Assembly (NCBI GenBank): GCA_031275815.1
Contig: JAISOF010000036.1
Span: 1 to 62,963, forward strand
Origin: Candidatus Nomurabacteria bacterium
GTDB taxonomy: Bacteria; Patescibacteriota; Saccharimonadia; Saccharimonadales; Saccharimonadaceae
Reading direction: 5' to 3'
Length of the DNA stretch: 62,963 nt
In this document: positions 4,001-10,494 of the stretch, in pieces
Position numbering within the stretch: position 1 is the stretch's first letter
How the letters are laid out: the number at the start of each line of letters is the position of its first letter
Position numbers and translations under genes: made by a program
Notes under the pieces: generated by a model
The model's database searches: none
What the model was told of the DNA's origin: nothing
Seen by the model: only the letters and a program-made list of their open reading frames with translations

Positions 4001-6795
4001 ATGTATATGAAGAAGTTTTGGGGGAGAAACAACTGGATTGCGACAGTGGCGCGTCGTTTCGCAATGACGAGGACATGTTGTTGGGTTGTAGAGTGTTGTA
4101 AAAATTACAACAAAAAAATCCTCTCTCTCTCTCTCTCTCTCTCTCTCTCTCTCTCTCGGCGTGTGGCACGGCGCAGGCTAAATCTGGACGGCGTGGTCGG
4201 GTCTCTCGTATCGCCACAACTAGCCTAATAATCGTAGCGCTCATAATTTCGTCACTCACGGGGATTTTTCAACCGGCGGAGGTGCGGGCGGCGGGGCTGA
4301 CCGACGACGGCTATACGGAGGTGGAATATATCACTTTCAACGGCTCAAACTATATCGATATGGATGTTGGGGCGGTCGGTAACACTAAAGTTACGGTGGA
4401 TTATCAATACGCTACCGTTGGGAATGATTTGTTTTTGTTCGGTTCGCAGATTAGCAACGCTGCCAACTGGCATCAAATGCGGTTTGGAATGTATACCTCT
4501 GGCTACCAGTATATGCGAGGCAGTGCTAGCAGTAACAGTGGTGGGGGCAGCCTTTTCACTTCCGCCGCAAATACCGACCGACATACGGTGGTGGCGAATA
4601 ATAACACCGTTCAAGTCGACGCTCTGCCAGTCCAAAGTTTCACCGCCGCTAATCCGACGACTAATTACAATCTGTATTTGGGAGCGTTGAATGCCAGCGG
4701 AGCGAGGCTTTTTTATCAAGGCAAAGTTTACAAAGCGGCGATAGACAAGGACACGGCAACCGACGACCGCAATTTTGTGCCGGTCAGGTGTGGGCTTTCG
4801 ACTTGTAGTGGCACGACCAACACCGGCTCGCCCGCCACTTACGCCGAATACGGGTTGTATGACACGCTGAATAACAAGTTCTATCACGGGGCTGGCAGTG
4901 CCTTAAGCGGTGCGGCTGTTCCACCAATCATCACCGATATTACACCCGACAGCGGTTCGTGGCAGGGTGGCGACGACGTGGTCATAACTGGCACGGGCTT
5001 TACCAGCAACAGTTCAGCCACCTTTGGCGATAAAATTGTCGGCTGTGAGACTGACAGTGATTTTCAACTGACTTGTACCACGCCCCAGCACACCGTCGGC
5101 ACGGTCGATGTGATGGTCAGGACAGAAAGTGGCGAAACGGGAACGCTGGCGGACGGCTTCACTTTCACGCCCAACCCGCCGCCCATTCAGCCGAGTGCCG
5201 ACCAACATTATTTTGCCGCCAACACCAGCGGACAGACGTTGACTATTAGCGGAGATTTTAGCGATGTGCCAGCGGGTTTTGAGCAGGTCGAGTATCTGGC
5301 ATTTAACGGCACGCAATATATCGATATGGGTGTGGGGGCGGTCGGTAGTACGATTGTGACGGTGGATTATCAGTTTAACAGTATAAGTAGTGGAGTGGTG
5401 GTGTTTGTGTTTGGGTCGCAGATTAACAATTCCGCCAACTGGCAGTCAATGCGGTTTGGGTTCGACGGTTCGATAACTGGTTATAATTTTCAGCGTGGTA
5501 GTGCTAGTGCTGCTGTTGGTGCGACTATTTTTGGCTCGGCGGTTAATGTCAACCGGCATACGGTGATAGTGGATAATAACACGGCACAAGTGGACGATTT
5601 GACGCCAATATCACTGGTGAATCCAGCCAGCCCGACGGTTTCATATAATATGTATCTGGGAGCGTTGAACGCTGGCGGTGCGGTCAGGCAATTTAGTGGG
5701 CGGATTTATGAGGCGAGTGTGGACAAAGCCGGCACGGCGGACGACCGCCACTTTGTGCCGGTGAAATGTAGCCAGTCGGGGGGTTGTAATAATGCGGTCA
5801 ATACTGGTTCGACGACGATTGCGGAGGGAACTTATGGAATGTTTGACACGCTCCACCAAGTGTTTTATCGGGCGGGGGCAGGCACGCTGGGTGGTGGCGG
5901 TGCGATGTCGACGGTGACGGGGGTGAAGGTTGATGGGGCTGCTTTGGGCGTGGGGAATTATACGGTGGTCAGTGACAGTCAGTTGGCGGTTGAGGTGCCA
6001 AGCCACGGGGTGACGAGCAGTCCGGTGGCGGTGGAGGTTACTAGTGTTGTTTGGGGAACGGTAACGTTGAGCGGTGCTGACGGACTAAACTTTGTCGAAA
6101 TAACCAGCCCAAGTCCGGCTGTTGGCTCGGCTGGCGACGTGGTGACCTTTTCGGGGTCAGGCTTCAGCGCCTTCACAGCACCGGAAGTCGATATCACCTT
6201 CGCCGGAGCGAGTGGCAGCGATATTACAATTGTTAACGACAACACCATCACCGTGAAAGTGCCGATGAACCCAGTGGTCGGCAGTTTTGGAGCGGTTGAC
6301 GTGGTGCTGACTTTGGGCAGCGAGAGCCTGACTTTTGTCGATGGATTTGCTTATGAGAGTTTTTTGAAAATCGGTGTCGACAAACCCATACTAAATATGA
6401 GCGGGTCGCCAGGGCAGTTAATCTCTGACCACGTAACAATTAATGTTAAGACCGACAATCCAACAGGATACAATTTAACCATTGAGACGGATGACATAGC
6501 TCTCACCTGCACAGACGACGAAACCCAGAAGATTACGGCCCTGCCAGAAGTAGCCGGAACAATGCAAGATAACAAGTGGGGCTATGCGGTAGACAATGAG
6601 GTTACGCCGACTACTCCGAGCAGTTGGACAGGCCTAACCGTTGCCGGAGCGTCGCTGAAAAACACCACCACACCGCAAGCCGACCCGACATCGGGTGAGG
6701 ATACACGGGTTTGGTTTGGCACACGCGCAGATTATACTTTGTCGGCTTGTTCTTATACTGGGAGTGTGACTTTTACAGCGGTGGCGAATGTGTGA
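4001..6795 (+). CDS. Phase-variable exported IPT/TIG-LamG surface protein A (frame OFF as given)
   Basis: The start region (ATG 4001 or 4007, just after TATAAT) is in one frame; the CT tract at 4121-4157 follows; the signal peptide and body are in another frame (open from 4102 to 6795, with no usable start before the signal peptide). Loss of one CT unit or gain of two would join them. The body begins with a hydrophobic segment (TTSLIIVALIISSLTGIF) and an A-E-V-R-A-A cleavage-like site near 4290. Domains: LamG-like A (about 4312-4910), IPT/TIG (4920-5175), LamG-like B, a clear duplicate of A (5260-5900), a TIG-like piece, another TIG (6085-6345), and a C-terminal domain with an NPTGY motif ending in FTAVANV that is shared with gene B. 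Probable cell-surface adhesin for host contact (inference). Confidence 0.82.
4121..4157 (+). repeat. CT dinucleotide tract, 18.5 units
   Basis: 37 nt of uninterrupted CT, read as alternating Ser-Leu, between the start codon and signal peptide of surface gene A. Its length sets the frame: upstream coding is in frame 2 and the signal peptide in frame 1 (window coordinates). Slipped-strand changes of 2 nt would switch expression. Confidence 0.95.

Positions 6796-10494: not shown

Follow-up and report, generated by a model that had tools for sequence, protein, structure and literature searches.

Genes A and B, two neighbouring surface-protein genes of a Candidatus Nomurabacteria bacterium, are very probably two of about 30 translational contingency loci in its genome, subject to phase variation by slipped-strand mispairing. 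Both lie in the window, the 62,963-nt stretch of DNA analysed here, which is one whole contig (C25) of the source genome (G000; 1.07 Mb in 43 contigs, 93% complete). The species is sampled by this one genome, and tract lengths are assembled lengths, which may be off by some units. A preliminary description had proposed that these two genes are switched by CT tracts. Both genes are real, and their layout holds: start codon, tract, signal-peptide-like stretch and body follow in that order, a consensus-matching, promoter-like TATAAT box stands directly 5' of the ATGs, and frame analysis places the break in reading frame exactly at the tract in each. Their number, however, was understated more than 10-fold, as there is a third tract in the window and 27 more tract loci in the genome.

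In gene A, the promoter-like site (3969..3996, + strand) consists of TTTGCA, 16 nt and TATAAT, with 10 of 12 matches, and is a consensus match only. Because its -10 box is directly before the ATGs, of which ATG 3995 overlaps it, the transcript is probably leaderless or nearly so. The leader (4001..4120, +) starts at ATG 4001 or 4007 and has one frame open into a CT tract (4121..4157, +; 37 nt, 18.5 units), where the registers of leader and body part. The ATGs at 3995, 4001 and 4007 share this frame, which reads through the tract to a stop at 4228; the body (4158..6795, +; 878 codons after the tract) lies in a different one, and gene A is thus OFF as assembled. One CT unit fewer or two more would join the two, as had been calculated. 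The body comprises a signal-peptide-like stretch (about 4207-4285), TIG domains (Pfam TIG, 1.6e-15) and a C-terminal domain common to the family. Upstream of the tract its frame is open only from 4102 and contains no ATG, GTG, TTG, CTG, ATT or ATC; downstream, a start first appears with GTG 4282, where the signal-peptide-like stretch ends, in agreement with the claim that no ATG, GTG or TTG precedes the signal peptide in this frame.

Gene B repeats this arrangement. A TATAAT (7643..7648, +; read from the sequence) stands directly 5' of the ATGs, the leader (7653..7726, +; ATG 7653 or 7659) has one frame open into a CT tract (7727..7753, +; 27 nt, 13.5 units), and leader and body change register there. 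The ATGs at 7647, 7653 and 7659 are in one frame and the body (7754..10494, +; 912 codons after the tract) in another, which is open to 10494, so that gene B too is OFF as assembled; one more unit or two fewer would correct it, again as proposed. Its body contains a signal-peptide-like stretch, TIG (4.9e-16) and Laminin_G_3 (2.6e-11) matches and the family C-terminal domain. Because TTG 7711 lies in the body frame upstream of the tract, weak expression of gene B in its present register is possible. The position of TATAAT directly before the ATGs of both genes places the tracts in the coding part and not in the promoter.

The third tract gene lies at the right end of the window. Its leader (62460..62530, +) is open from ATG 62460 into a TC tract (62531..62561, +; 15.5 units), and its body (62562..62963, +) has a signal-peptide-like stretch and runs for 133 codons to the contig end, out of the ATG frame. 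It is a paralogue of C24:69620 (54% over 112 aa). Two further repeats were seen in pre-tract leaders (window 4040-4115, L033, L039, L052 and L056): REP-like palindromes of the cgtcattgcgaggagcgaagcgac type and a GTTGTAAAAATTACAAC inverted repeat common to several loci. Elsewhere, window 49706-50255 holds an array of ~5.7 copies of a 96-bp unit, the copies being 82% alike.

Across the source genome, an end-anchored pattern search found 31 CT/AG tracts of at least 6 units at 30 loci, two tracts on contig C29 being split by one base. The tracts are 17 to 66 nt long and, apart from the leader-ORF loci described below, are perfect simple repeats in the translated part near the 5' end of the gene. 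In 20 simulated 1.07-Mb genomes with the same dinucleotide make-up, the longest CT/AG run to arise by chance was 10 nt, which excludes a chance origin, and among dinucleotide repeats of at least 5 units in 216 kb of the genome CT/AG was the only kind. On the coding strand the tracts fall into a CT class that encodes Ser-Leu repeats (genes A and B and the third window gene) and an AG class that encodes Arg-Glu repeats and often reads ATG CGA TTA GCC and then the tract, the ATG being conserved 12 nt before it. Leader and tract are fused to a readable body at 24 loci (133-1722 codons, some bodies being cut by contig ends; the C8 locus is cut and unreadable). At 10 of these 24 the body is in frame and at 14 it is out of frame, a proportion consistent with one in three (p = 0.39) and inconsistent with fixed in-frame repeats. 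Bodies that are ON as assembled include C17:2320, C24:69620, C33:22844, C33:70789 and C35:40659. By comparison, all five tract-free family members examined start in frame with an ATG (5/5 vs 10/24, Fisher p = 0.042). A change of one unit shifts the start relative to the body, and both registers occur, here and in a genome of the same family but another genus (G004). Tract length also differs within a closely matching pair, at the end of contig C24 and the start of C2: the flanks are 93% and 100% alike, with 60 nt of downstream flank identical, and the tracts measure 24 and 30 nt, three units apart.

At five loci (C2, C7, C24 end, C34 and C43) the tract lies in a leader ORF, and the body behind it is equipped with a ribosome-binding site and ATG of its own. 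In four of the five, a leader frame terminates across the body start in an ATGA overlap, which can also arise by chance; in C43 there is a leader frame that terminates eleven bases behind the body start. In the assembled register, every one of the five leaders ends short of the body start. This geometry suggests translational coupling as a second way in which a tract could be read.

The bodies that are out of frame are intact. They remain open for at least 670 and up to 1722 codons, for which the chance is about 1e-14, and dN/dS is 0.20-0.42 in pairs of paralogues that are both OFF and 0.26-0.48 in pairs with an ON member, the two values for pairs with gene A being rough because dS is near saturation. 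OFF bodies are therefore under purifying selection, as is expected of contingency loci. Across the tract genes we found TIG, Laminin_G_3, SdrD_B, Chlam_PMP, Listeria-Bacteroides repeat, ALK/LTK glycine-rich and Fib_succ_major domains, and direct reading of two bodies reveals sortase-signal-like ends, in which a PNTG motif is followed by a hydrophobic stretch and then basic residues. With few exceptions, then, the predicted functions point to the cell surface and host contact. One non-surface exception, C33:59383 (L070:1883-5815), has an AG tract behind its ATG, in frame; its protein of 1299 codons (1311-aa reading frame) carries a GNAT domain at the C-terminus and lacks an evident signal peptide. 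Two small tract-gene proteins have one membrane stretch each, one of them with a TPR motif. In seven loci (L063, L065, L066, L067, L069, L071 and L073) the last 60 codons form a lectin-fold-like C-terminus (WGSDYSYFV..PWF.RGG...GFRVV) that varies at set places, resembling the targets of retroelements. A diversity-generating retroelement acting on these paralogues was rejected, as no RVT_1 reverse transcriptase was found in the genome at 93% completeness and no template repeat was seen for them.

Together, these observations support a model in which a start codon, a CT/AG tract, mostly a signal peptide or transmembrane stretch, and a surface-type body would form one switchable unit. Slipped-strand mispairing at replication would add or remove 2-bp units, and would go unchecked because MutS is absent: MutS_V was found in none of 61 genomes (the source genome and 60 relatives), and 11 of 14 controls have it. 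CT/AG repeats are free of stops in all frames, so a tract can be crossed at any length. Translation that starts at the leader ATG would thus enter the body in frame for roughly one third of tract lengths (ON), and at the other lengths the ribosome would stop soon after the tract (OFF). A clonal population would then be mixed in the adhesin-like proteins that it displays. We infer that the tracts slip in living cells, that the genes are expressed and their products located at the surface, and that this is of benefit in contact with the host microbe; the tracts need not slip fast. The assignment to dinucleotide contingency loci made in the preliminary description is thereby supported by the 30 loci, the mixed frames among the 24 fused ones, intact and selected OFF bodies, in-frame tract-free paralogues and the lack of MutS.

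If the tracts instead lay in leader sequence and the bodies were started downstream of them, the frame of the fused genes would be irrelevant. Signals of this kind, a ribosome-binding site with an ATG, are indeed present behind the tract at the five leader-ORF loci, and gene B offers GTG 7798 and ATG 7825 within its hydrophobic stretch, but initiation inside that stretch would destroy the signal. In gene A, moreover, the first start after the pre-tract stop is GTG 4282, which comes only where the signal-peptide-like stretch finishes, and the AG-class genes conserve an ATG 12 nt before the tract. We therefore consider downstream initiation improbable as an account of the fused genes, though it is the strongest of the competing readings. 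Somewhat less probable again is that the tract induces transcriptional slippage or programmed ribosomal frameshifting and so gives a constant proportion of full protein. Slippage can occur at long simple repeats, and neither gene A nor gene B is in frame in the assembly. Programmed frameshifting, however, keeps one conserved register with a shift site, and here registers and lengths are mixed: genes A and B would have to shift in opposite directions, no shift is required at 10 of 24 loci, and the tracts vary from 17 to 66 nt. Slippage during transcription or translation is also less well known at dinucleotide repeats than at homopolymers.

Assembly or PCR stutter could have produced wrong tract lengths in genes that are in frame in cells. 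Repeats of 17-66 nt are prone to stutter, and several of the 43 contigs end within or just behind tract genes (C2 start, C8 start, C24 end, C25 right end, C27 start and C43 start), where near-identical paralogues probably broke the assembly. Yet tracts occur in several separately assembled genomes, again in both registers, and without MutS one would expect slippage at tracts this long even where they are in frame; stutter thus has a slimmer chance than frameshifting of explaining the pattern. That the out-of-frame genes are decaying pseudogenes seems the least credible reading and scarcely worth entertaining: more than half are out of frame, but purifying selection acts on their bodies, which are unbroken for 670-1722 codons, and breaks occur only at the tracts. 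We accordingly return to slipped-strand mispairing at contingency loci as the preferred interpretation.

The source genome carries the label Nomurabacteria in GenBank; the sizes of its groups, a large family within a small class, suggest Saccharimonadia instead. Tracts are unevenly distributed among relatives. Counted as one match per tract, the source genome has 29, G004 22, and a genome of the same genus (G001, 74% complete) 8; 86 of 101 genomes are tract-free. Of 380 genomes sampled evenly across the phylum, 45 have at least one tract and none exceeds the source genome, which has the most among about 460 Patescibacteria sampled. The absence of MutS permits slippage but does not account for the restriction of tracts to some lineages. 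One family of GGTGATT-repeat proteins in G004 carries AG tracts of 23-41 nt between the ATG and a membrane stretch, in both states. Because tract proteins share only about 35-45% identity with those of the nearest genomes, orthologous comparison of tract lengths across species says little.

The arrangement recalls known phase-variable systems, and the proposed switch would operate in the manner of the CT-repeat outer-membrane genes of H. pylori. In Helicobacter pylori, sabA, babB and hopZ are related outer-membrane genes with CT repeats. Another such gene, oipA (hopH), also carries a CT repeat (PMC10564699). As in oipA, the repeat found here stands near the 5' end of a surface-adhesin gene, a change in units shifts the frame, and ON and OFF genes coexist. 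The H. pylori proteins, however, have no homology to the tract proteins of the source genome, and their repeat lies inside the code for the signal peptide, where the tract here is mostly before it; the source genome further differs in its AG-class tracts, lengths of up to 66 nt, about 30 loci in 1.07 Mb and leader-ORF form. The opa genes of Neisseria contain a CTCTT repeat in the leader-peptide code and resemble the present loci in forming a set of surface paralogues that all have a repeat of their own at the leader, which gives stochastic ON/OFF combinations. Their repeat is a pentanucleotide in Opa beta-barrel genes, in contrast to the dinucleotide repeats and TIG/LamG-type bodies here; the proteins are unrelated, and the loci are fewer. 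Within the Patescibacteria, the closest case in the literature searched is a Gracilibacterium BD1-5 with a hypervariable PTD-repeat gene for a predicted surface protein (PMC6851277), a repeat locus comparable in that respect; there, 9-mers encode an in-frame tripeptide with synonymous variation and provide no ON/OFF switch (PMC6851277).

As the preliminary description had supposed, no phase-variable switch of the CT/AG type in Patescibacteria was described in the literature searched, most subscription journals lying outside its scope, and priority is accordingly unproven. Patescibacteria have small genomes and for the most part live on other microbes, to which they attach. With ~30 randomly switched, mostly surface-type genes per Mb, a clonal epibiont could vary its contact proteins without sensing, and variable adhesins may thereby bear on host range, as had been suggested. 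Host range and escape from phage become testable by counting repeat units in existing reads. Automatic annotation would call many tract genes truncated or give them wrong starts.

Single CT/AG tracts in other Patescibacteria often lie in reverse transcriptase genes (Pfam RVT_1), where they are 17-47 nt long and stand at the 5' end or mid-gene between conserved motifs. Where the tract is mid-gene, the halves of the enzyme share a frame in two of five cases (G131, tract at C1:143323, and G254) and not in the other three (G111, tract at C1:724841, G326 and G334). A pair of template and variable repeats of 112-137 bp, with 92-100% of mismatches at template adenines, lies close by at eight of the 12 reverse transcriptase loci: L220 (G049, of the same family as the source genome), L221 (G205), L223 (G158), L225 (G269), L226 (G111), L227 (G131), L229 (G326) and L230 (G254), the other four being L222, L224, L228 and L231. 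Because their mismatches are adenine-biased, these eight are diversity-generating retroelements, with an enzyme that appears to be phase-variable. No link between phase variation and the reverse transcriptase of a retroelement was found in the available parts of the literature searched. We lean towards the view that CT/AG tracts are a general switching layer of the Patescibacteria, MutS being lacking at least in this order, which would act on about 30 genes here, five of them through leader-ORF coupling, and elsewhere on retroelement reverse transcriptases. If so, hypermutation of target proteins would itself be switched on and off by phase variation.

Tracts were also seen in two other settings. 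Those in L193 (G213), L198 (G364) and L186 (G330) immediately precede N-termini like those of prepilins (FTLIELLIV and similar), so that switching may extend to type IV pilins. In L179 (G251 C8:77303), the gene for a type I restriction specificity subunit carries an AG tract that separates its two target-recognition domains and is in frame in the assembly.
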